38,368 nt of DNA from a virus. The notes under the pieces were generated by a model. The model searched no databases. It saw only the letters and a program-made list of their open reading frames with translations, and was not told where the DNA came from. Made by a program: the position numbers and the translations under genes. Shown in pieces: positions 13,673 through 38,368 of this stretch. The stretch's first letter is position 1. Every line of letters starts with the position of its first letter. Where the stretch lies: the IMG/VR virus record IMGVR_UViG_3300032220_000825, positions 1 to 38,368 of that record; one strand, given 5' to 3'.

Positions 13673-15982
13673 TTGACAGGAATATTGGCTTCCCCCATAC
13701 TAGTTGGACTTGTGGAACCTCAATACAATACAAATTCCGTTCCTGATGATTATCTAAAAACGCTATCACCAACCGGAAAAGCACCAAAAACTAGGATCAC
13801 CGACCAGAACGGGCTTTTTTCAATCTATCAATCCCTATACATGGCAGACGAGCAGGGAGCTCGCGACCGTGCCCGTATTATGGACATGTTTGACGGAGCC
13901 GCCCCTTACGATCCCGTTGCCTTGCGTAGACTCGGTCAAAGCTATAGAGCTAATTTAAACTTCGGTGAAGCCGGGGCAGATTTGGAAAAAGCCCTTACGT
14001 CCTACAATGATTTGATTACTTCTGTTGATCGGTTGATTAATGTTAAAACGAGATTTGGCGATGAAAGCCAGCGTGAAGAATACGCGTCTATAATTGCAGA
14101 AGAGTTCACACGTCTCCTCACAAAAGATTGGTCCAGCTTTTATTTTAAACAACAGTTACTTTCCTATTACTTTGTATCTCAAGGTCTTGGTGTTGCTTAT
14201 TTTGAAGACGAACGAAATTGGCAGTGGACTGTATGCCCAATTGGAGATTTCTTCATGCCCCGCGGAACTCCCGCCACAGAAGATAAAGTGGAGTTTGCTG
14301 CTGTTCGAAGAATTTTCTTGGTCCACGAACTTTATCAATATATTGAGAATCCAAAGGTTGCAGAAGAAGCAGGTTGGAATGTAGACGCAGTAAGAGAGGC
14401 GATCCGCAATGCCACTTCAACTTATCCTAGCGACGGTCTTAACTGGGAAGAATTGCAAAGACAGTTAAAGTCGAATGATCTTTATTTTTCTTACGTTCGA
14501 GCAAAAGAAATTCACGTCATTCACTATTACGTAAGAGAATTTGATGGAACTTATTCTCACGCCATTGGACTTCGTGACGGCTCTGGCGATTTCTTGTTTA
14601 AAAAACTCCATAGATTTAAGACTGCTTCAGAGGCTTTCCATATCTTTACTTATGGCATTGGTAATGGTCTTTATTATTCGATTCGTGGTTTAGGGTATAA
14701 GATTTTCCCGCATATTCAGATGACTAATCGTTTGCGTTGCGCCATGGCGGATGGAGCCATGTTGCAGACCTCAGTCCTCTTGCAACCGCAGAGCGCAGAA
14801 GATGTGTCCAAGATGACGATGGCTTATTCTGGACCATTATCCTTTCTACCTCCAGGATTGAATGTTGTTCAAACTCAGTATCCAAATTTGGCCGCGAATG
14901 TGCAGCCGATTGTAAACGAGATGGCGATGGTTCGTCAGAGCAATACTGGCTCTTACCGAACCCAAATGAATGCGCCTACCGGCAATCCACGCACGGCTAC
15001 GGAAGTAGAAGCACAAGTTGCGAACGAGGCGATACTAACCACCAACTCCATGAATTTGTTCTACGTTCCTTGGGGACGTTTGCTACGCGAACAATTCAGA
15101 AGGCTACAACGCGATACATGGGTTCCTGGAGAAGAGGGATCTGAGGGAGCTATAAAATTCCGCACCAGACTGGAAGAGCGTGGCGTTCCGTGGGAGGCAG
15201 TTAAAGCTGTTTATGATGTTGACGCCGTAAGGGCAGTTGGACTTGGATCTCCAGCAGCTCGCTTGTCGGCCTTCAACGAGTTCATGCAGATGCTACCTAG
15301 ATTTGACGAACTCGGTCAGGTCAATGCAATTCGCGATCGAGTAGCCGCTCGTGTTGGTTATGATCAGGTCGATCGATATTTACCAAATCCTAATGTCAAG
15401 AATCGCATCCCGGCTGACGCCAAGATTGCAGAACTTGAAAATGGTTCGATGCAAGCCGGCAGACAAGTGACGGTAATGCCTAACGAAAATCATGCGATCC
15501 ATTTGGCTGTCCATTTAAAAGAAACTCAGCCAATTGTTCAGGCTGTTCAAAACAACCAGATTCAAGATAAGCAAGCGACCATGATGTTTCTCACTATGGT
15601 ATACGAGCACTCGAACGAACACCTTCTTAGGATTGTTGACGACAAGACAAAGCAACAGGAAATCGGCCAAGCTAAACTTGCTATGAATCTTTTACGCGAA
15701 GCCGTTGTGAATTTACAAAGGGATGTCGAGCAGGATATCCGAGCGGCCAACGAACAACAACAGCAAGCCGCTTTAGAACAAGGTCAAGTGCAGGGCATCT
15801 CGCCTCAAATGCAGATGAAAATGCAAGAGCATCAACTCGACATGCAACTTAAGCAGGAGAGAGCACAGCTTGATGCGCGCTTTAAAGAAGCGGAATTAAA
15901 ACAAAAATTAGCTTTACAAGACGCACAAGCCGCAGCTAACCTTCGTGCTGCGATGAGTACACCCAACGCACAAAAAGCATGA
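13673..15982 (+). CDS. Portal protein, long podovirus-type
   Basis: A 769-residue protein directly after terminase, the standard place for the portal. The N-terminal third has the portal-type opening (DEQGARDRARIMDMFDGAAP, then SYRANLNFGEAG and a long stem helix). The C-terminal 100 residues are a Gln-rich helical barrel-like tail (QEHQLDMQLKQERAQLDARF). The length fits P22-like rather than T7-like portals. The start appears to be the TTG at 13673 after AAGGA with short spacing; there is no in-frame ATG nearby. Forms the dodecameric vertex ring through which DNA is packaged. Confidence 0.85.
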   Translation: MTGILASPILVGLVEPQYNTNSVPDDYLKTLSPTGKAPKTRITDQNGLFSIYQSLYMADEQGARDRARIMDMFDGAAPYDPVALRRLGQSYRANLNFGEAGADLEKALTSYNDLITSVDRLINVKTRFGDESQREEYASIIAEEFTRLLTKDWSSFYFKQQLLSYYFVSQGLGVAYFEDERNWQWTVCPIGDFFMPRGTPATEDKVEFAAVRRIFLVHELYQYIENPKVAEEAGWNVDAVREAIRNATSTYPSDGLNWEELQRQLKSNDLYFSYVRAKEIHVIHYYVREFDGTYSHAIGLRDGSGDFLFKKLHRFKTASEAFHIFTYGIGNGLYYSIRGLGYKIFPHIQMTNRLRCAMADGAMLQTSVLLQPQSAEDVSKMTMAYSGPLSFLPPGLNVVQTQYPNLAANVQPIVNEMAMVRQSNTGSYRTQMNAPTGNPRTATEVEAQVANEAILTTNSMNLFYVPWGRLLREQFRRLQRDTWVPGEEGSEGAIKFRTRLEERGVPWEAVKAVYDVDAVRAVGLGSPAARLSAFNEFMQMLPRFDELGQVNAIRDRVAARVGYDQVDRYLPNPNVKNRIPADAKIAELENGSMQAGRQVTVMPNENHAIHLAVHLKETQPIVQAVQNNQIQDKQATMMFLTMVYEHSNEHLLRIVDDKTKQQEIGQAKLAMNLLREAVVNLQRDVEQDIRAANEQQQQAALEQGQVQGISPQMQMKMQEHQLDMQLKQERAQLDARFKEAELKQKLALQDAQAAANLRAAMSTPNAQKA

Positions 15983-16269
15983 CGTTAAACGATTGGAATA
16001 AACGAACCGATCTTAAGAACGCTTGGAGAGCTTTCCGCAAATCAGAAGCCGGTGAATCTCTGGTACGAGTTTTATTGAACCTTGGTGCCCCATCAGCAAC
16101 TCTTCCTCCACCGAATGTTGATTTCATTGATTGGAATGCAACTTTAAACGCACGAAGAGAAGGTTACTTCGAGGCAATTCGCGTACTTTCAACCTTGTCA
16201 GAAGAAGCCGGAGAACCAACTAATCTTCCGGAACCTTGGGAAACCAAAATAGACACAACAAACCAATAA
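15979..16269 (+). CDS. Hypothetical protein, 96 aa, between portal and scaffold
   Basis: Not recognised. The ATG overlaps the portal stop by four bases (ATGA), so it is probably coupled to portal translation. The N-terminal half is basic and helical (DWNKRTDLKNAWRAFRKSEAGESL), the middle has APSATLPPPNVDFIDW, and the rest is a polar helix. Small proteins at this position in related gene orders are often head-assembly accessories, but nothing specific can be seen. Confidence 0.72.
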   Translation: MTLNDWNKRTDLKNAWRAFRKSEAGESLVRVLLNLGAPSATLPPPNVDFIDWNATLNARREGYFEAIRVLSTLSEEAGEPTNLPEPWETKIDTTNQ

Positions 16270-16284
16270 TAAGGAAAATAAACT

Positions 16285-17490
16285 ATGAGTGAAACAGCAA
16301 CCGCAGAACCCACATCTACAGCAACAGGATCGGAAAATCTTAGTTTTGCCGACGCATTTGATGCTGGATTTGAAGCCCTAAATAAAGCTCCCTCGGCTGA
16401 AGCCCCTGTCGCAACGGCTGTGACGGCCCCAGCCGAAACCACAAAACCCGTTGAAGTGGCTAAGACTGATGCGTCTACTTCCACCAATCCCCTCGATATT
16501 CTGACTAAGCGGATGACTGGACAAGAAGAAATCACGAAGACAGAAGCTGTTTCCGATGACTTGGATGTTAAAGCACCCGAGAATCTTAAGCCCGAAGCTC
16601 AAACTGCTTGGGCCCGTTTGACCAAAGATTTGCGCGAAGCCCGTACAAAGCTGAAAGAGCTTGAAGGCAAAGTATCCGAAGCCCCAACTAATTCTGTTGA
16701 GCAGATTGATTTGCAGAATCAGTTGAATACGCTCAAGCAGGAGCGCGATGAGTATGAGAATGAATTGAAGTTCTCCCGATTGGAGTCCACTAGGGAATAT
16801 AAACAAGCCGTTACTGAACCTTTAAACAGCATTCAGCAAGAAGTTTCCGATATCAGCAAGCTTTATGAGGGAGTTGATCCCCGGAATATCTATGCCGCAA
16901 TGGTTGAGCCAGACCCAGCAAAACGTCGCGCCTTATTAAAAGAAGCTACGAGTGCATTTGACCCAGTAGATTCTTTGGCCATTCGAAGCAAAGCAGAAGA
17001 ACTTCAAAGGGTCTTTGAGAGACGAGAAATTCTAACTAAAGATGTTAATACTGTGTTGCAGATGATTCAAGCCGAAGAGCAGAAGGAAGCAACTGCTTTC
17101 CAGCAAAGAATGGAGTCAGAGGTTAAAACTGCTTATGAGTCTGAATGGCAAAATCTACAAAAGGAAAATGCTCTATTACGCCCTATTGAGGGGAATGAAG
17201 CTTGGAATAGCACCTTAAACAACATCCAACAGCAGGCCATGCAGATTGAGAATACTGAGCTTGACCCTAGGGCTAAAGCTAAGTTGACCTTTAATGCTGC
17301 GGCTATGCCCGTGGTTATGAATGTATTTCAGGATTACGTGGCCAAGACTCAGACCCGTATTTCTGAACTTGAGAAACTGACTAAAGAACTTCGATCCACC
17401 ATGCCTTCTTCCGGTGGAGCGAAGGGTGGCGGGGTTGAACTCCCAGCTAATATCAGCTTTGTCGAAGCCCTCGAACGAGGGATGAAATAA
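16285..17490 (+). CDS. Scaffold-like capsid assembly protein
   Basis: A 401-residue, strongly charged, largely coiled-coil protein immediately before the major capsid gene, the usual scaffold position. The N-terminus is Ala/Thr/Pro-rich and disordered-looking (residues 30-85); long helices with many Glu/Lys/Gln residues follow (about 100-190 and 230-370). The C-terminus has SSGGAKGGGVELPANIS before a final short helix (FVEALERGMK), possibly the capsid-contact element. A good AAGGAAAA site precedes the ATG. The assignment rests on position and composition, not on a motif. Confidence 0.72.
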   Translation: MSETATAEPTSTATGSENLSFADAFDAGFEALNKAPSAEAPVATAVTAPAETTKPVEVAKTDASTSTNPLDILTKRMTGQEEITKTEAVSDDLDVKAPENLKPEAQTAWARLTKDLREARTKLKELEGKVSEAPTNSVEQIDLQNQLNTLKQERDEYENELKFSRLESTREYKQAVTEPLNSIQQEVSDISKLYEGVDPRNIYAAMVEPDPAKRRALLKEATSAFDPVDSLAIRSKAEELQRVFERREILTKDVNTVLQMIQAEEQKEATAFQQRMESEVKTAYESEWQNLQKENALLRPIEGNEAWNSTLNNIQQQAMQIENTELDPRAKAKLTFNAAAMPVVMNVFQDYVAKTQTRISELEKLTKELRSTMPSSGGAKGGGVELPANISFVEALERGMK

Positions 17491-17494
17491 ATTT

Positions 17495-17741
17495 GTTAAA
17501 AGCTATTGACACGTTCCATCCGGTTGATACTTTTAACTAGTTCAGTGCAGGTATAAAGATTGAGACCCTTACTGAACAAGACCTATAAAGATTGAGACGG
17601 TCTAGCAGAATTCGGGCATTAAAAGCTCTGGGATGCCGCCAGGGAAAAGTTTTGAGTCGTAGTGAGGACGGATAGCCTCGATAGGGGCTGGCGTACTTAC
17701 TATAAATCATAACCTACCCTTTGCGCGAGCAGGGGAAGGTT
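17495..17741 (+). ncRNA. Structured RNA leader of the major capsid gene, with twin identical-loop hairpins
   Basis: This 271-base gap has no ORF and is dense in inverted repeats. In order: GTTAAAAG/CTTTTAAC (17495-17502/17530-17537); GTTCAGT/ACTGAAC (17540-17546/17571-17577) with AGG/CCT inside; AGACC/GGTCT (17579-17583/17599-17603); GGCAT/ATGCC (17615-17619/17633-17637); AGCCTC-GATA-GGGGCT (17674-17689); and AACCT..AGGTT (17711-17741) capped by a GC-GCGA-GC GNRA tetraloop. The second and third hairpins expose the same 15-base loop on unrelated stems. The last hairpin ends just before the AAGGAAA ribosome site of the capsid gene. A regulatory or stabilising leader, or a processed RNA, is inferred. 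Confidence 0.6.
17552..17598 (+). repeat. Two exact 15-bp direct repeats
   Basis: TATAAAGATTGAGAC occurs at 17552-17566 and 17584-17598, 32 bases apart start to start. Each copy is flanked by arms that pair with each other but differ between copies (AGG/CCT and AGACC/GGTCT). The repeat is therefore the loop of two separate hairpins. As DNA it could also be a pair of protein-binding sites or phage promoters. Confidence 0.85.
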
Positions 17742-17761
17742 GAAAGGAAAATACTACTACT

Positions 17762-19177
17762 ATGGCTACTACTTACTCTATCGAGCAGTTGCTCGTTAAA
17801 GAAGCTGGGCGTATCGGACCGGAGATTTATCGCCGGACCGTTGATACTTCCGCCTGGCTCAAACTAACTAAACAGGAACAATTCCCCGAGGAGATGGGCG
17901 ATGTGATCAGTTCGGTCACGTTCGAACGTTTCTACCCCTCCAGCAGCATTGCTGCCGCTACCGCCAACGGTTATACCGCTGGTGATATCACCGGAGACGC
18001 GGGATTCGGATGGCGTAACCTCGGATCGAATCCGATTGATCAGACCTACACCGGGTTCAATCCTTACACCCAGACCATCTCGGGCGGAACTACTCCTCCC
18101 GTGTCCTCGAGCTCACCCTCGTCGACGGCTGGAAACGCACTCCCCATCCCCCTCACTGGCGTTACTTTCGGACAAAAGCTCCGTCAGTACAGCTTGAAGT
18201 GGGCCTCGGTTGATTCCCCCGATATCGCCTTGGAAGATTTGCGCTTTGCCGTTAAACGCAAAGAACAGCTCTCCAACATCATGGATGTCCTCTCTGAGTC
18301 GACCTCCTTGGTTTGGCAGGACCGCTATCGGCAGTTGTACACTGAGCAGGTCGCAGCTGAAGGTAACCTCGTTATCCCCAGCGCTTCCACGATTGGTATT
18401 CTTCCCGTCAACTCGACTGGGTCGAATGCTTTCAGCATCAGCGTGACTGACTTGGTTGGTGTTTACAGTGCGGTTACGGCCGGAACTGGAACCGCCGCCT
18501 CCGGCGCGTTTGCCGCTAATGCTCTGCCTCAGAGCCAGCTGACACAAGGTATCCTGAAACGGTTGTACATGAAGCTGATCCGCGACGGCGCGGGTACGCA
18601 AGCCATGGGCCGTGAAAACGGAGCCCCTGTGTTCATGCTCATCTGCGGTGCCGAAACCAGCGAAAACCTGATCCGGTTGAATGCCGACATTCGCCAGGAT
18701 TACCGGTATGCCAAACCGAATGAATTGCTCACGCCTCTCGGCATCGAGCGTTCTTACGGTGGTTTCTACCACTCCATCGACCCGTATCCTCCCCGCTTCA
18801 GCGTGTATGATACGACTAACGATAAGCTCATCCGCGTGTTCCCCTTCCGCAGGGAGACCACGACCAAGGGTACGGCTTACAACATTAACCCAGCATACGA
18901 GACGGCTAGCTACGAAATCAGCTACATCTTCCACCAAGATGTTATGCGTTCCGTGGTTCCCAGCCCGATCGCCGTTGGTAACAAGATGGGCTTCAACGCT
19001 CAGAATTACCGCGGTGAGTTCAAGTGGGTCAACATCCTTGATCGGGCGTTCAACCCGGACGGAAATGTCGGATATTTCCGCGGGGTGATGGCCAGCGGTG
19101 CTCGGCCCGTGTTCCCGCAGTATGGCTATGTCATCCTGCACACACGGCCTGCTATCAGCCTTGACTACGTTAGCTAA
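17762..19177 (+). CDS. Major capsid protein
   Basis: A 471-residue protein after the scaffold-like gene, expected to form the capsid lattice. It starts with MATTYSIEQLLVKEAGRIGPEIY and has a Gly/Ser/Thr/Pro-rich loop near residues 95-125 (possibly an extended or inserted loop). The second half is a mixed alpha/beta body ending AISLDYVS. Codon choice is strikingly richer in C-ending triplets than that of neighbouring genes, as expected for the most abundant protein. An AAGGAAA site stands about 11 bases before the ATG. Identification is from position, length, composition and codon use; no short motif is diagnostic. Confidence 0.82.
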   Translation: MATTYSIEQLLVKEAGRIGPEIYRRTVDTSAWLKLTKQEQFPEEMGDVISSVTFERFYPSSSIAAATANGYTAGDITGDAGFGWRNLGSNPIDQTYTGFNPYTQTISGGTTPPVSSSSPSSTAGNALPIPLTGVTFGQKLRQYSLKWASVDSPDIALEDLRFAVKRKEQLSNIMDVLSESTSLVWQDRYRQLYTEQVAAEGNLVIPSASTIGILPVNSTGSNAFSISVTDLVGVYSAVTAGTGTAASGAFAANALPQSQLTQGILKRLYMKLIRDGAGTQAMGRENGAPVFMLICGAETSENLIRLNADIRQDYRYAKPNELLTPLGIERSYGGFYHSIDPYPPRFSVYDTTNDKLIRVFPFRRETTTKGTAYNINPAYETASYEISYIFHQDVMRSVVPSPIAVGNKMGFNAQNYRGEFKWVNILDRAFNPDGNVGYFRGVMASGARPVFPQYGYVILHTRPAISLDYVS

Positions 19178-19201: not shown

Positions 19202-19510
19202 ATGAGCTCCCCTCTTCAAACGCGCACTCAGGATAACGTCCTGGCGGCCCAAGTTCGTGGTGTGTTGAATAACGGACCCGAATGGGGCACTTCAGGAAGT
19301 ACCGTAGCAACCGTTGTAACTGGTTCGGGTGGAGCTGCCTCCACTCTCAGCACACTGACGGCTGCTTCAGGAACGGCTAGCGCAACATCGACGCTTGTTG
19401 ATGTTACCGCTACCCCAACGCAGACAACAATCAATAATAATTTTCAGACTTTGGCAACAAAGCTGAACACTATTTTGAGCTTGCTGCAAAATCTGAACGC
19501 GACTAACTAA
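19202..19510 (+). CDS. Small capsid-associated protein, possible decoration protein
   Basis: A 102-residue Ser/Thr/Ala/Gly-rich protein right after the capsid gene, with a strong AAAGGAG site. The N-terminus has TQDNVLAAQVRGVLNN, and a similar phrase opens the product of 20297-20860, so the two may be related. The middle is low-complexity (GSGGAASTLSTLTAASGTASATS) and the end is a helix (FQTLATKLNTILSLLQNLN). Decoration or head-completion is inferred from position only. Confidence 0.65.
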   Translation: MSSPLQTRTQDNVLAAQVRGVLNNGPEWGTSGSTVATVVTGSGGAASTLSTLTAASGTASATSTLVDVTATPTQTTINNNFQTLATKLNTILSLLQNLNATN

Positions 19511-19519
19511 ATAATCAAT

Positions 19520-19553
19520 TGGTCCACCGGGGTTTTTATCCCCCGGTGGACCA
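19520..19553 (+). terminator. Strong 13-bp hairpin after the capsid/decoration genes
   Basis: T-GGTCCACCGGGG (19520-19532) pairs perfectly with CCCCGGTGGACC-A (19541-19553) around an eight-base T-rich loop. It lies nine bases after the stop of the preceding gene. The 3' side lacks the U run of a classical Rho-independent terminator, so partial termination, RNA processing or 3'-end protection of the capsid mRNA is as likely. Confidence 0.6.
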
Positions 19554-22869: not shown

Positions 22870-24570
22870 ATGAGTTTTCCTAATCCCGACAACTACGCCC
22901 GAGATTGCGATTGCGGAACAGCCGGGGCTAATACCACTCCTCCGCCGGCAACAATTCAAGCTGAAATTGATTCTCTCGACACTCGTGTAACAACGCTTGA
23001 GAATACCAATGATGTTATTGTAAGCGCTGGCGGTATCGCTGATTTGACTACGGAGCAACAAGCGTTAATCAACGAAGGTAGTTGGGTTGTGACTTCTGAT
23101 GGTCGTGAATGGGTTTATTCAGGCGCCGGGTCAAAATTACTGGAAGCTTCATACTTTGAAGTTGGAGCTGCCGATTATCGGTTATTGAGACCAAATCCAG
23201 CTACAAGCACTCTTAATTTAGCCGCCGGAATTTCCGCTCTTGCGGTAGTTTCTAGCGGCGTAGGTAATACTGCTTTTGGAAATAACGCATTAGATGTTAA
23301 CACCGTGGGTTCGTACAATACAGCAGTTGGCTCACAGTCTTTGGGCTCAAACACAACCGGGCAAGCAAATACCGCGGTTGGCCATAGCGCTCTAGTCGGC
23401 AATACAACTGGAGTAAGCAACACAGCCGTTGGTAGGAGTGCAATGGTAAACAATACAACTGGAGGCCAAAACACAGCCACCGGATTAAACGCCCTCCTAT
23501 CAAACACTACGGGGAGCTTCAACACAGCCACCGGAGTAAGCGCCCTCCAAGCAAACACAACCGCAAATAACAACACGGCTACTGGTTACCAAACTCTCAC
23601 AGCAAATACAACCGGGACCCAGAATACTGCTATTGGTGGGTCCGCTCTTAGCTCCAATACAATCGGGGTAAACAATACCGCTTCTGGTTACCAAGCCCTC
23701 GCTCTTAATACTACGGGAAACAACAATATTGCCGTTGGGTATTGCGCCCTTTACAATAATACAACTGGAGCAAACAACACGGCTTCTGGAGTGTCCGCTC
23801 TTGGAGCTAACACAACTGGAACCCAAAATACAGCTAGTGGGTATCAAGCCCTCCAAGCAAACACAACTGCCAGCAACAACACGGCTACTGGTTACCAAGC
23901 CCTCACCTCAAACACAACTGGGACCAGCAACACAGCCTCCGGAGTAAGCGCACTCCAAACAAACACAACTGGAAATAACAATACCGCTTCTGGATTTGAA
24001 GCCCTCTATTCAAATACTGCAAGTAGCAACACAGCTATTGGCTATAGAGCCCTTAAAACAAACACAACTGGAACCGGCAACACAGCCTCCGGATTTAACG
24101 CCCTCTATGCAAACACAACTGGAGGAAGCAACACAGCCACCGGAATAAACGCCCTCTATGCAAACACAACTGCGTTTTACAACACAGCTATTGGAGCAAG
24201 CGCCCTCGCCGCAAACACAACTGGGGCTAGCAACACAGCTACTGGTACAAGCGCCCTTTCCGCAAACACAACTGGGGCTAGCAATGTTGCTTTAGGATTT
24301 CAAGCTGGGGACGCTATAACCACTGGGTCAAATAACATTTGCATCGGTGCTAGCTCGGATGTTGACGCAGGAACGAGGGCTAATTCTATTGCGATTGGAT
24401 CTGGAGCTATCGCAACAGTCGATGGGCAAATTGCCTTTGCCTCTACCCTCGCAACCAAAACAACCATTGGGGCAAACGGAGGAGCAACTGCCCTTACAGC
24501 GCTTCCAGTTGGATATATTCGAATTCGTATTGGCACGACCAACTATCAAATTCCGTACTACAACGAATAA
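22870..24570 (+). CDS. Tail-fibre or adhesin-like protein with 17-residue repeats
   Basis: A 566-residue protein. Residues 1-130 are a non-repeated head with a CDC motif near the start and a coiled-coil-like DSLDTRVTTLENTND. From about 133 to 488 it is a run of some 21 units of about 17 residues with consensus NTAxGxxALxxNTTGxx, a pattern of beta-roll/solenoid stalks as in YadA-like adhesins and many phage fibres. One unit is one residue short. The C-terminus (LPVGYIRIRIGTTNYQIPYY) closes the rod. The fibre would reach the host surface. No Shine-Dalgarno; a promoter lies just upstream. Confidence 0.8.
   Translation: MSFPNPDNYARDCDCGTAGANTTPPPATIQAEIDSLDTRVTTLENTNDVIVSAGGIADLTTEQQALINEGSWVVTSDGREWVYSGAGSKLLEASYFEVGAADYRLLRPNPATSTLNLAAGISALAVVSSGVGNTAFGNNALDVNTVGSYNTAVGSQSLGSNTTGQANTAVGHSALVGNTTGVSNTAVGRSAMVNNTTGGQNTATGLNALLSNTTGSFNTATGVSALQANTTANNNTATGYQTLTANTTGTQNTAIGGSALSSNTIGVNNTASGYQALALNTTGNNNIAVGYCALYNNTTGANNTASGVSALGANTTGTQNTASGYQALQANTTASNNTATGYQALTSNTTGTSNTASGVSALQTNTTGNNNTASGFEALYSNTASSNTAIGYRALKTNTTGTGNTASGFNALYANTTGGSNTATGINALYANTTAFYNTAIGASALAANTTGASNTATGTSALSANTTGASNVALGFQAGDAITTGSNNICIGASSDVDAGTRANSIAIGSGAIATVDGQIAFASTLATKTTIGANGGATALTALPVGYIRIRIGTTNYQIPYYNE
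23266..24333 (+). repeat. Coding tandem repeat, about 21 units of 51 bp
   Basis: The 51-bp period encodes the 17-residue fibre repeat. Blocks such as AACACAACTGGA and AACACAGC recur many times with few changes, so unit gain and loss by recombination is likely. One unit (about 23980-24030) is 48 bp. Confidence 0.85.
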
Positions 24571-33704: not shown

Positions 33705-36700
33705 ATGGCGGATCCACTTAACCCTGAGACAGAGCTTGATATAGCGAGTCTCCCCGAGGGTGAGCAACAAGCTATTGACTCCTTGTTCGCTCCTTCTGGA
33801 GTTACCCCTGAACAGGAGATTAACTCCCTATTTTCAGCCCCATCTCCAAATCTTGCTCAAGCTCAAAATCTTATTTCTTTGCGCGATGACCCGCAGTCAA
33901 CCGATCTTATCGGTGGTCTGGCTACTCGACTCAAAGAAAAGAAACTTCCATTCAACACCCAAGCGTGGCAAGACGTACAAGATAACGTCCGTAAATATTC
34001 GCTTGAGTCTAGCCAAAAGATTTTAGATGCAGAGAAAAAAGGTGACTGGGGAGAACTGACCAAGCTCGCACTCCTAGGAGTTGGTAAGACCATGGGGGCT
34101 TACTTACAGGGTGGTCTTGGAATTACAAATGAGGAAGCCGAAGCAACGCAGAAAAGTTTTGCCGCCCGAAACTATGTGGGAACAATCAACGACCCAGCGC
34201 AGGCAGCCAAAGCTCTGGAGCTTGGGAATTTTTATGAGGACGAACTAACCAGCGGGAAATCAATCGTTCCAAAAGACGAAAAGCCAGCGATGGCTTTTGG
34301 CAAAGGACCTCTAACAGCCAAGGTTGGAATGAATTTGGCGATGGCCGAGAACTATCTTCGGGATCTCGAGAGCGATCGCTCTAAAAAATTGGGTACGGCC
34401 AGCTTGCGGAACTTTGCAATTCAATCTGGTGATGCCTTCCTACCTTTCGTTTCTCTCGGTGACATTATAGTTGACGAGAACGATCCCGATCAGGTTGCGC
34501 GTCGAGCCGCCCTTTCCAACGCGATCAACAATACAATTCAAAAAGATTACATGACCGGAACTTTGGCCGGAGCGGCGATTGGATCGGTTGGGTCGTTTAT
34601 TGGAGTTGGTGCTGGAGCTACTAAACTTTTGGGCAAAGCCAGTAAAATTGCCGACCAATCAATTAAAGTTCCAAATGTTCTTTCTAGGGGAGCAACTTAT
34701 GCCACTATCGGATCTTCTCAATCCTTTGAGGGAGATCCTAGGAATCTATCTATCCCCCAGCGTTTATCTTCTATATTTAGCGAGAGTGCTGTTTTGGGTT
34801 TGGCCGAAGGGGCTGGAAACAAATTAGAAAACTCGATCGATAATGCCATAGCTAATCATGCAGCTGCAAAAGCCTTGGCTACAAAAATCCCAGCCCTCGC
34901 GCCTTTAGTTGGTAGCACGGGGAAGGTAGTTGGAACTACCCTTGGGGAAACGGCATCAGAAGAAATTGAAGCCATTCTTCGTGGGCAAGATCCCGTTGAG
35001 CCTTTGCTCCAGAACTTGGCCGTATCGGGAGGTATTGGACTTGGAATGGCAATCCCTGGAGTTGTAGGGGCAGCGTCTATCGCAAATCGTCGAGCCAAGA
35101 TATATAAATTAGCGGACGATCGATTTGCAAAATCTTTAGAGCAAACAGTATCAAGCATTAAAGTTGATCCAAATCTTAATGACCAACAGAAGGCGGAACA
35201 ACTAGCCCAACTTCGTCAATCCTTAACCTCACCAAAGGCTCAATCTCTTTTTGATGCTGTCAATGTTCGTTCCTCCCTTGATACGGTAACCACCCCCGAA
35301 ACAAAAAAGGTAGCAGACGAAGCGGTAGAATCTGCGAAGCAAGGAGCCGTTGAATCCATGCTGACACAGGAGATTTCAAAAGCAGAGGGGCAGATCGGTA
35401 CGCCAGCGACGATTGAAACCAGAGCCCCCGAAACTGAAGAAGAAAAGCTTTCTGCACTCAATGAGTTGATTGGTGTTTTTGAGAAAGGTGCTACGACCAT
35501 TAACCTTTCTAATACACCAGAGAATGCTTCGAAGATTCAATGGCTTGAGAGTCAGGGTCGCGTAATTGGTGAATTGTCCGAAGACGGAAAAACCTATTCT
35601 GTAACGAATGTAAAAACTGACGCTGGCAATTGGATGAACGGGATTCCTGCGATTGAATTTAAGCAAGAGTTAAAAGATCAGTTCATTCTGCGTGCGGAAG
35701 AGATTGGTCTTGAGACTGACGAGATTGACCAAATGAATTCCGAGCTGGAGAAAGCTGGAACAGATGATGCTATCGAAGAAGTTGCCAGAAAATATCTTGG
35801 CCCAACCGATTATGAAGTCGCCTTGGAAAGCCAACTGGCTAAAAGCCAAGAGCTGATTGATCAGGAGAAACCAGCAGAGATCAATGCGAAAAGACTTCAA
35901 GATCAAATCAATGTTCTCGAAAATAAAATAAAGGAAGCTCCAGCTGATGAAGCCGTTGCCATGCAGGAACAGCTTGCAAGGCTTCAGGCAATGCAGGTTG
36001 AGGGACAGGCTGCTCGTTTAGTGCGTGGCGAAGAATCGGTATCTAAACTAGTTCAGCAATTTGAGAACGAAGCTACGAAAGAAGCCAGAACCGGAAAGCT
36101 GGCCCCCGAATTGGAAGCCCGTCCCGATATCGTTCTTCCGATCAACAACCCCGAAAGCGAGTCTTTCCAAAAGTATCAAAAGCTAGAGCCAGATCCTAGA
36201 GAGAATTCAAAGGAAGCACTTGGAGCAGTATTTAATTTAAAGAATCCTGCCACAATCGAGTTGCTCCAAAGTCTTGGCGCGATCGACGAGAACGGTCGCA
36301 ACATAATGACTCCAGCAGAAACCGTTATGGCTTACGTTAACCGTAAGAGATCTTATTTGCAGAGCAAGTCGCTAGGTGGATATCAAAAATATAATATTGC
36401 AGATGAAGTATCTGCCGCGACCATCAACAGCTTTTTATATGAACTCAGACAAGGCAAGAATAATCTTTCCTTAAGCACAATTTTTAATAGCCGACTTCGG
36501 GACTTTATCCGTAGGGCTGTTCCTCGGATGCGTGCTGGAGTTGGTCTTGGTGCGGCCGTTAGCCTTGAGACTCCCGGTCTTCGTGTTAATGCAGTCGATG
36601 CTGACACGCTGGCCGAGGAACAAGGAATCAACCCCGCCGTCGCCGGAGCGATCAATGAAGCCCTCGACCAGATCGATGCAACAGAAGTGGATAACCAAGT

Positions 36701-38368
36701 TGCCAATCCTTCTGACGTTCCTTCGCCAGCCCAGAGGCAGGAAGCTCTTTCCATTCTTGCCCAGAATCTTCAAGCACCTTTTAGGCAATCGCTAGGAACT
36801 GAAGCCGAGAGACTTGCGTTTGACTCCGTGACTTCCGGTAAAGGAGCTACAGCTCAAGATGCCGCGAAGATTGGAACTACCGTCGAAAACATCAATGCAT
36901 TGAAGCCAGCGGTTCAGCAGAAGTTTGTTTCCGCGTTACAGGCTGAATACCGCAAGAACCAGGAAGCTGGAACTCTTCCGGTTCGAGAGGTCGTGGAACC
37001 AGAAGGAATCGTCCGAGAGGGAAGTCTAACTGCCAAACAAATCCAGCCAGCAATTGAACGCTTCCGAAAACTACAGGCCGATGATTTCTTTGACGACGTA
37101 GAGCTTGCCTCCGCCAAAGCATTGCTCGAACAAACCCAAAGCACCCGCTCCGTTAATATTCTTCGGGCTTTTGAAGGATATATGGATTCCGTAGTTGAGT
37201 CTAAACTTTCTCCTGAAGGCATCACTGAACTAGCTGAAGCGGTCGATAGCAATCTTAAGACTGCCCTCGATGACGGAAACATTTCCAAAGCTCAGTCCGA
37301 TGACTATGTCGACAAATTAAACAAACTTGCGGAGCCTTATTTGGCTTCTCAAACAATGGAAGAAGGACCGGCAAAGAATAATATTGCCGCCACCTTCAGA
37401 TCAAATCTGCTAAAGGTCAACGACCAGATTCTGGCCGATAGCGGAATTACCACCAACGAGGAAGGAACATATGAAGAACCAACAACTAAACCAACCCCCA
37501 AGCCAAAAGCCAAAACAGCCGATGATCGACGTGAGGAAGCTCGCCAGAAGCTCGCGGAAATCGAAGCCAAACGTGCTGCCACCACAAAGCGAGTTTCTCA
37601 AGAAACCGTTCCCGTTAAGCGGGAAGAAGTGGGACGAGCTGTTGCAGGTGGGGCAACCGGAGTCGGGAGACCTGGAGCTGAACGCGCTCGTGGCGTCCCC
37701 CTCCCCAAGTCCTTCGTCGAATCCCGCAACCAGCTAGGCAAACCTTACAGCGAGAAAGTTCTAGATCCGATCGGATCGGAAACTACTAGCCTCTTATCTC
37801 CAGAGCAAAAGCAAGATGCGGCGGCGGCCATCACCACGATGGAAAGCTCCAAGCATAAGGCTTTTTACTTGGCTAATGGTCCCGGAACTGGCAAGACCCG
37901 AGTATTGTTGGCGGCGGCCAAATACTATCTCAACAAAGGATTTAATGTATTTTATTTGACGGCTCCCGATGCCGTTACTCCGAACTGGGATCTCAACACA
38001 ATCGGCGGTTCGATTGAGAAGGATGCCGGATTGATGGGCGTTCCGATTGCGGCTCGTGGAGGTAAGGGTGAGAGTGGTCGCGGTCTTCCGATTGAGAATG
38101 TGCCAGGAAAAGTTGTTGTCTCCACTTACACTTCGCAGTACTTGGAAAAGATTCTTCCGTTAGTGGATGCAAAGACAGTTGTTATTTTTGACGAACAGCA
38201 TTCCGGACGAAACCTGCATAAAGCAATTCAAGAAGGTAAGAGCCGTGCCTGGTCGATCCTAATGAATGAGATTTCACAGAAAGCCGGTCGAGTACTGATG
38301 GCTTCTGGAACTCCGTTTGAGACACCCGATCAGCTTCTCTCGCTTGGCCGACTTGGTATTTTTGACAC
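33705..38368 (+). CDS. Giant ejection/polyvalent-type protein with C-terminal SF2 helicase (partial)
   Basis: An uninterrupted frame of at least 1554 residues from the ATG at 33705; it runs off the window. Two Gly/Ala-rich hydrophobic segments, near residues 285-312 and 436-460, could cross a membrane. Long charged helical and disordered regions follow (700-1380). From about 1385 an SF2/SNF2-like (strawberry-notch-related) helicase starts: Walker A NGPGTGKTR (1391-1399), VVIFDEQH (DEQH, 1496-1499) and ASGTPFE (motif III-like, 1533-1539). The C-terminal helicase half is missing. Layout and position match polyvalent proteins that phages inject with DNA. Confidence 0.8.
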   Translation, partial: MADPLNPETELDIASLPEGEQQAIDSLFAPSGVTPEQEINSLFSAPSPNLAQAQNLISLRDDPQSTDLIGGLATRLKEKKLPFNTQAWQDVQDNVRKYSLESSQKILDAEKKGDWGELTKLALLGVGKTMGAYLQGGLGITNEEAEATQKSFAARNYVGTINDPAQAAKALELGNFYEDELTSGKSIVPKDEKPAMAFGKGPLTAKVGMNLAMAENYLRDLESDRSKKLGTASLRNFAIQSGDAFLPFVSLGDIIVDENDPDQVARRAALSNAINNTIQKDYMTGTLAGAAIGSVGSFIGVGAGATKLLGKASKIADQSIKVPNVLSRGATYATIGSSQSFEGDPRNLSIPQRLSSIFSESAVLGLAEGAGNKLENSIDNAIANHAAAKALATKIPALAPLVGSTGKVVGTTLGETASEEIEAILRGQDPVEPLLQNLAVSGGIGLGMAIPGVVGAASIANRRAKIYKLADDRFAKSLEQTVSSIKVDPNLNDQQKAEQLAQLRQSLTSPKAQSLFDAVNVRSSLDTVTTPETKKVADEAVESAKQGAVESMLTQEISKAEGQIGTPATIETRAPETEEEKLSALNELIGVFEKGATTINLSNTPENASKIQWLESQGRVIGELSEDGKTYSVTNVKTDAGNWMNGIPAIEFKQELKDQFILRAEEIGLETDEIDQMNSELEKAGTDDAIEEVARKYLGPTDYEVALESQLAKSQELIDQEKPAEINAKRLQDQINVLENKIKEAPADEAVAMQEQLARLQAMQVEGQAARLVRGEESVSKLVQQFENEATKEARTGKLAPELEARPDIVLPINNPESESFQKYQKLEPDPRENSKEALGAVFNLKNPATIELLQSLGAIDENGRNIMTPAETVMAYVNRKRSYLQSKSLGGYQKYNIADEVSAATINSFLYELRQGKNNLSLSTIFNSRLRDFIRRAVPRMRAGVGLGAAVSLETPGLRVNAVDADTLAEEQGINPAVAGAINEALDQIDATEVDNQVANPSDVPSPAQRQEALSILAQNLQAPFRQSLGTEAERLAFDSVTSGKGATAQDAAKIGTTVENINALKPAVQQKFVSALQAEYRKNQEAGTLPVREVVEPEGIVREGSLTAKQIQPAIERFRKLQADDFFDDVELASAKALLEQTQSTRSVNILRAFEGYMDSVVESKLSPEGITELAEAVDSNLKTALDDGNISKAQSDDYVDKLNKLAEPYLASQTMEEGPAKNNIAATFRSNLLKVNDQILADSGITTNEEGTYEEPTTKPTPKPKAKTADDRREEARQKLAEIEAKRAATTKRVSQETVPVKREEVGRAVAGGATGVGRPGAERARGVPLPKSFVESRNQLGKPYSEKVLDPIGSETTSLLSPEQKQDAAAAITTMESSKHKAFYLANGPGTGKTRVLLAAAKYYLNKGFNVFYLTAPDAVTPNWDLNTIGGSIEKDAGLMGVPIAARGGKGESGRGLPIENVPGKVVVSTYTSQYLEKILPLVDAKTVVIFDEQHSGRNLHKAIQEGKSRAWSILMNEISQKAGRVLMASGTPFETPDQLLSLGRLGIFD

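Follow-up and report, generated by a model that had tools for sequence, protein, structure and literature searches.

Comparison of related phages indicates that the leader of the major capsid protein gene in an uncultured virus is a sense-strand RNA structure under selection, tied only to the capsid gene. The source is the IMG/VR virus record IMGVR_UViG_3300032220_000825, analyzed here over its full 38,368 bases, which we call the window. Within the leader, the 15-nt sequence TATAAAGATTGAGAC is the exact loop of two neighboring hairpins, with copies at 17552 to 17566 and 17584 to 17598, about 160 to 210 nt upstream of the capsid start codon.

Twin-loop hairpins upstream of the capsid gene

17540 to 17577, + strand: hairpin P1, the first twin-loop hairpin, beginning at the predicted +1; loop at 17552 to 17566; compensatory changes on 4 pairs; found in clade G3 by a covariance model of clade G1
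17579 to 17603, + strand: hairpin P2, the second twin-loop hairpin; its loop, 17584 to 17598, equals the first; compensatory changes at 3 of 5 pairs, 100% of cells paired
17762 to 19177, + strand: major capsid protein gene, 471 aa, HK97 fold, N4-like, as judged by Foldseek on a low-confidence model and by N4-like synteny

P1 is closed by GTTCAGT (17540 to 17546) with ACTGAAC (17571 to 17577) together with AGG (17549 to 17551) and CCT (17567 to 17569), and P2 by AGACC (17579 to 17583) with GGTCT (17599 to 17603). An initial annotation of this DNA, made from its letters alone, had described twin hairpins showing one 15-base loop on differing stems. We confirm that layout, with the arms as they were given. 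A 15-nt direct repeat within 60 nt never arose in dinucleotide shuffles of the window (0/200), nor did a repeat of at least 10 nt with arms of at least 3 bp at both copies (0/200). The folding z score is -2.43.

The annotation had also considered that the 15-mer might be a phage promoter found at many other genes. Searching the whole 38,368-base record with up to two mismatches, we found no further copies of TATAAAGATTGAGAC. The two copies ahead of the capsid gene are the only ones, so the loop does not recur elsewhere as a promoter motif would, and we rejected it as a promoter or repeated operator. The loop has no antisense partner within the window, and antisense action in trans on the loop was rejected on that ground.

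Conservation of the leader across clades

The capsid search of IMG/VR gave 34 loci. Nearly all have leaders of about 220 to 300 nt; two have longer gaps because no long upstream ORF ends nearer. For the clade of the window, G1, we aligned 20 distinct leaders (alignment A6) on a structure of 50 pairs that runs P1-P2-PK1-P4-P5, the last three being described below. In this alignment, 98.5% of cells are paired, as against 93.5% when shuffled and at most 46% when slid. In 17 of the 50 pairs, both bases differ among leaders while pairing is retained (9.1 on average in shuffles, 0/500), and 70 cells are changed on both sides (22 when shuffled, 0/500); these shuffle statistics ignore the relatedness of the leaders, a concern addressed by the slide control and by the fact that another clade has these helices too. 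Compensatory changes occur in P1 as well as in P2, for example from AGACC/GGTCT to AAACC/GGTTT or TGACC/GGTCA. The earlier impression that pairing is kept is thus borne out, and covariation is also seen in G3 and in G2.

G-U cells outnumber A-C cells in the helices by 144 to 9, which argues for sense-strand RNA and not a DNA cruciform. On the strength of this excess, we rejected a DNA-level element, whether a cruciform or a recombination or packaging site.

Further loci were found with the pattern of the most conserved stretch, GGCANNNAAAGNNNNGNGATGCCNNC. All genuine matches with enough downstream sequence lie about 109 to 151 nt upstream of the same capsid family. Clade G3, with capsids about 500 aa long and about 45 to 52% identical to that of the window, carries a pair of 15-nt loops, TATAAAAAYGGAAGY and TAYAAAAATGGAAGN, each on a different stem. 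Exactly two 15-nt loops, 32 to 36 nt apart, were present in 37/37 leaders (20 from G1 and 17 from G3), on stems that are altered and still paired. Loops of the same genome differ by 1.6 bases on average, compared with 4.9 between clades. The initial annotation allowed that homologous leaders might lack covariation or lose the twin loops; instead, the homologues covary, and the twin loops occur in two clades. The aligned sequences indicate that the twin loops are not general to this leader type, as clade G2, with a capsid about 43 to 48% identical to that of the window, is without them and keeps PK1.

A covariance model built from G1 alone found the G3 leaders in place, mostly with E values near 1e-4 and at most 0.07 for the most divergent. 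Against loci of the other clades, the model gave no matches. In the records of 16 relatives, strong matches fell at the capsid leader only. The two best secondary matches, in two relatives, were dismissed as chance because they lie inside coding frames, and the model found no second non-coding copy of the twin-loop leader. The capsid tree places G1 and G3 as sisters (100/99) and accounts for the leader types with seven changes, which is the minimum.

Interleaved helices and probable pseudoknots

17615 to 17644, + strand: interleaved helices PK1, a probable H-type pseudoknot, kept in G1, G2, and G3
17615 to 17619 with 17633 to 17637, + strand: helix S1 of PK1, GGCAT with ATGCC
17620 to 17625, + strand: loop of PK1, TAAAAG
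17626 to 17631 with 17639 to 17644, + strand: helix S2 of PK1, CTCTGG with CCAGGG

PK1 is the most conserved part of the leader and was missed by the initial annotation. S2 has compensatory changes at four of its six pairs and is paired in every cell (22 distinct sequences from three clades). S1 is invariant throughout G1 to G3, and together with the adjoining AAAAG it forms a nearly invariant block; because S1 never varies, its pairing gains no support from covariation. Of the two interleaved helices that would both be expected to covary in an H-type pseudoknot, S2 is therefore informative and the invariant S1 is not, and the third loop, at 1 nt, is short for the standard form. From its sequence, we regard PK1 as a probable pseudoknot. 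Pseudoknot geometry by itself is not rare, with several chance knots in coding regions of the window, so the weight of PK1 rests on its conservation.

Clade G2 keeps CGGGCA..AAAAG..GATGCCG.C, with GGCA/UGCC as S1 and CUCUGG/CCAGGG as S2. It also has a second knot, GUCG/CGAC with CGCGG/CCGCG, in which the helices covary (GGCG/CGCC, UCCGG/CCGGA). Leaders of more distant clades are unalignable by eye and hold analogous knots with a different S1. When 19 distant representatives were scanned for S1-(N)UAA-S2-S1'-S2', 16 of them contained a knot, whereas shuffles predict 0.14 and 1 of 76 coding controls had one; this count is suggestive and not a clean test because the UAA criterion was picked after inspecting the sequences. 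In the distant capsid relatives of clades G4 (L165 to L185) and G5 (L187 to L195) and at loci L186, L192, and L203, the leaders differ in sequence yet are structured and conserved as well, with pseudoknots of their own and GCUAA motifs in repeated copies.

Predicted promoter, remaining hairpins, and ribosome site

17506 to 17533, + strand: predicted sigma70-type promoter, with TTGACA at 17506 to 17511, a 16-nt spacer, and TACTTT at 17528 to 17533; predicted +1 at about 17540
17659 to 17703, + strand: long hairpin P4 with a GATA cap; inner hairpin at 17673 to 17690; 10 pairs change on both sides (helices 5 and 6)
17717 to 17735, + strand: hairpin P5 with a GNRA cap (GCGA), helix 7; 100% of cells paired, changes one-sided only; present in G1 only
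17742 to 17748, + strand: GAAAGGA, the Shine-Dalgarno sequence for the capsid gene, mostly open (probability of being unpaired in the window, 0.79)

TTGACA at the leader start is kept in all aligned G1 to G3 leaders, and the -10 elements vary. That of the window, TACTTT, is a poor match to the consensus, and the promoter and its +1 are predictions. The first helix lies at or near the predicted +1 in both G1 and G3. The initial annotation had taken the whole span from 17495 to 17741 as leader; judging by TTGACA and TACTTT, its first part, 17495 to 17539, is probably promoter instead. It had also listed four further inverted repeats. The GATA-capped and GNRA-capped hairpins are present and conserved, and one of the repeats proved to be two interleaved helices.

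Across leaders, the unpaired probability of the Shine-Dalgarno sequence is 0.36 to 0.83, making it partly to mostly accessible. We rejected an upstream ORF from the ATG within PK1, as its frame and length vary among leaders (by eye). CsrA sites, which place GGA in a hairpin loop as for RsmA, were rejected as the function of the leader; ANGGA occurs in G3 loops only, with none in G1, the window included.

Hairpin behind the capsid unit

19520 to 19553, + strand: 13-bp GC-rich hairpin closing the capsid unit, which consists of the capsid gene and an ORF at 19202 to 19510

No other long hairpin in the record is as rich in GC. Counting only hairpins of at least 9 bp with the conserved loop, 53 of 66 distinct relatives have a GC-rich hairpin of 10 to 15 bp after the capsid gene or after the capsid gene and one small ORF. 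Several relatives outside these 53 have another strong inverted repeat there. The stem sequence varies widely, and the loop stays near GG(UUCUAUC)CC. In G4, the hairpin is followed by TTTTT, with weaker T runs elsewhere; for this reason, it may be a terminator, a stabilizer, or both. The loop, GG(UUCUAUC/UUCAAUC)CC, resembles a tRNA T-loop (for example, L001:6751-6783, L065:7320-7354, and L168:4241-4277). Kissing of the GATA cap with this loop (GAUAG/CUAUC) is unsupported because L015 alters the cap and leaves the 3' loop unaltered.

The capsid gene and its phage

We modeled the capsid protein with AlphaFold2, using 30 relatives as input, and obtained a model of low confidence (pLDDT 56, pTM 0.51). 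Its best Foldseek matches are HK97-fold major capsid proteins: the N4 coat protein (9e99, E 1.4e-7), then those of Moo19, B2, and DEV. Its match in the viral library is a Vibrio phage major capsid protein. According to this model, the gene at 17762 to 19177 encodes an HK97-fold major capsid protein with N4 nearest. No PHROGs family was matched by the gene or its relatives, and the window capsid protein had no match in Pfam or phage isolates; the same isolates gave no match to the terminase either. Among the genome contigs searched for a host, both the PK1 pattern and the capsid family were absent.

The head module of the window has a 769-aa portal-like ORF, a small ORF, a 401-aa ORF, and the capsid gene. 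Escherichia phage N4, which has the nearest capsid fold, shares this order: the 94-kDa protein/portal, gp58 (a small ORF), gp57 (a scaffold-size ORF), and the coat protein. However, the gp57-coat gap of N4 is 11 nt and has no such leader, whereas the gap in the window is 271 nt. The N4 gene order of the head module makes it probable that these uncultured phages are distantly related to the Schitoviridae. This module spans 13673 to 19177, and the longest records of relatives reach about 67 to 82 kb. Elsewhere in the window, an ORF longer than 1,554 aa runs off the end (33705 to 38368), has the helicase-like motifs GPGTGKT and DEQH at its end, and is perhaps a giant ejected virion protein. A 566-aa ORF (22870 to 24570) has many 17-residue repeats of the NTA.G..AL..NTTG type, in 51-nt direct repeats, like YadA-type head repeats, and is probably a tail fiber. 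On the minus strand, an ORF at 118 to 1074 has the trypsin-like serine protease motif GNSGGPL and resembles an HtrA-type protease.

Possible functions of the leader

The best explanation, which we put forward tentatively, is that the capsid leader acts in cis to protect or boost the capsid mRNA, with the twin loops binding a shared partner. Transcription would start at the base of P1 and so leave RppH/RNase E or RNase J without an unpaired 5' end to act on. It is established that 5'-terminal pairing stabilizes mRNA and slows its decay, because a single-stranded 5' end is what RppH and RNase E require (PMC3997798). The capsid mRNA would run from P1 to near the 3' hairpin, with both ends sealed, and the compact leader and 3' hairpin together would make the message long-lived and highly translated. 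We counted for protection the covariation, the G-U excess, the helix near the predicted +1, the accessible Shine-Dalgarno sequence, the 3' hairpin, and the capsid-only location. From clade to clade, the two loops of a genome change as a pair, which makes it probable that they dock a common partner, either a phage or a host protein. Plain stability needs neither invariant loops nor an invariant S1; specific recognition is therefore likely, and protection may be a by-product. Nothing in this analysis supports a role in packaging.

A partner at the loops could also make them an autoregulatory operator, where a phage protein (capsid, scaffold, or other), possibly dimeric, would bind the twin loops and match capsid synthesis to assembly. 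We consider this rather unlikely, though several features suit it: two identical loops stand at an even spacing on stems that are unrelated, their joint change from clade to clade is what a co-evolving partner would produce, they are located at the capsid gene only, and the leader type follows the capsid tree exactly (seven changes, the minimum). Clade G2, however, does without the loops. Operators of MS2-type repressors overlap or sequester the Shine-Dalgarno sequence or start codon; here, the former is mostly unpaired and the loops are about 160 to 210 nt from the latter, so simple ribosome-site occlusion does not work.

The put element of phage HK022 promotes read-through of terminators by way of the beta' zinc-binding domain of RNA polymerase. 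It is about 70 nt long, with two stem-loops, and acts in early operons (PMC9378689). The leader likewise belongs to a phage, would act in cis, and has two adjacent stem-loops, P1 and P2, just past a promoter, albeit a predicted one. Given this likeness, the leader might be an antiterminator in the nascent RNA, of put or EAR type, that alters RNA polymerase so that transcription continues past the post-capsid hairpin into the following genes, and the strong terminator-like hairpin after the capsid unit would give it a target. Overall we judge it improbable: the conserved element does not end at 70 nt but reaches about 200 nt, taking in the pseudoknot and P4, in a leader of about 210 nt, and its extra conserved structures are not described for put. 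Moreover, it is always at the capsid gene and not at the head of the structural operon, and the hairpin tails are T-poor in G1 and most of G3, making the need for antitermination unclear.

S1 and S2 might instead be alternatives, chosen by a ligand, a protein, or cotranscriptional folding. The two helices interleave with a 3'-side link of one nucleotide, tight for coexistence, and S1 with AAAAG is nearly invariant, as in ligand pockets. Such a conformational switch is nonetheless quite improbable, as neither state sequesters the Shine-Dalgarno sequence, most clades are without a clear terminator-like partner, and no known riboswitch matches. A separate small RNA that acts in trans, either cut out of the capsid message or made upstream of it as its own transcript, has its own predicted promoter and a compact fold in its favor but is very improbable, given that no terminator-like site was scored on the + strand between the leader and the gene in the window, the loop is without an antisense partner there, and the element is always beside the capsid gene at a conserved spacing.

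Relation to known leaders and significance

Rfam 15 gave no match for the window at the gathering threshold, and one G1 and one G2 locus had chance-level matches only (E up to 10); a known riboswitch, ribozyme, or RNA family was rejected accordingly. The open-access papers searched, those on N4-like leaders included, describe no capsid-gene leader of this kind. The earlier remark that no RNA with this layout has been described holds for both sources.

Several known leaders share single features with this one. The ompA and papA leaders of E. coli belong to messages for abundant structural proteins and likewise have a stem-loop at or near the 5' end with a free ribosome site. Pairing alone suffices in them, whereas this leader also conserves its spacing and the sequences of its loops and S1, and carries a pseudoknot-like element further downstream. 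Stabilizers of that type have a helix within a few nucleotides of the 5' end, and P1 would have that position if the promoter prediction is correct. Phage T4 gene 32, for an ssDNA-binding protein, has an autoregulatory mRNA leader that also contains a pseudoknot upstream of a gene whose product is abundant. That pseudoknot has a short first loop and a long third loop, the reverse of PK1, and the leader is without twin loops. Exoribonuclease-resistant RNAs (xrRNAs) are described in RNA viruses of eukaryotes. By analogy, the capsid leader, as a compact and probably pseudoknotted RNA, could block 5' to 3' decay, but it matches xrRNAs neither in sequence nor in Rfam.

The kind of element, a cis-acting structured leader, is already known, while the family, its layout, and its tie to a tailed-phage capsid gene appear new. 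It is possible, and we propose with some reserve, that this is a previously undescribed capsid-leader RNA family of uncultured N4-like phages. The UAA-marked pseudoknot would be its ancestral core, to which clade-specific modules (twin loops, second pseudoknot) were added, and a phage or host protein would read the twin loops, tying capsid output to assembly or shielding the message.

The capsid leader could serve as a natural message-stabilizing or expression-tuning part. Tailed phages need hundreds of copies of the capsid protein, and the setting of that amount at the RNA level is hardly known. With a leader of 200 nt that has covarying helices, one loop in duplicate, and what may be a pseudoknot, RNA control of capsid levels becomes directly testable with reporters.
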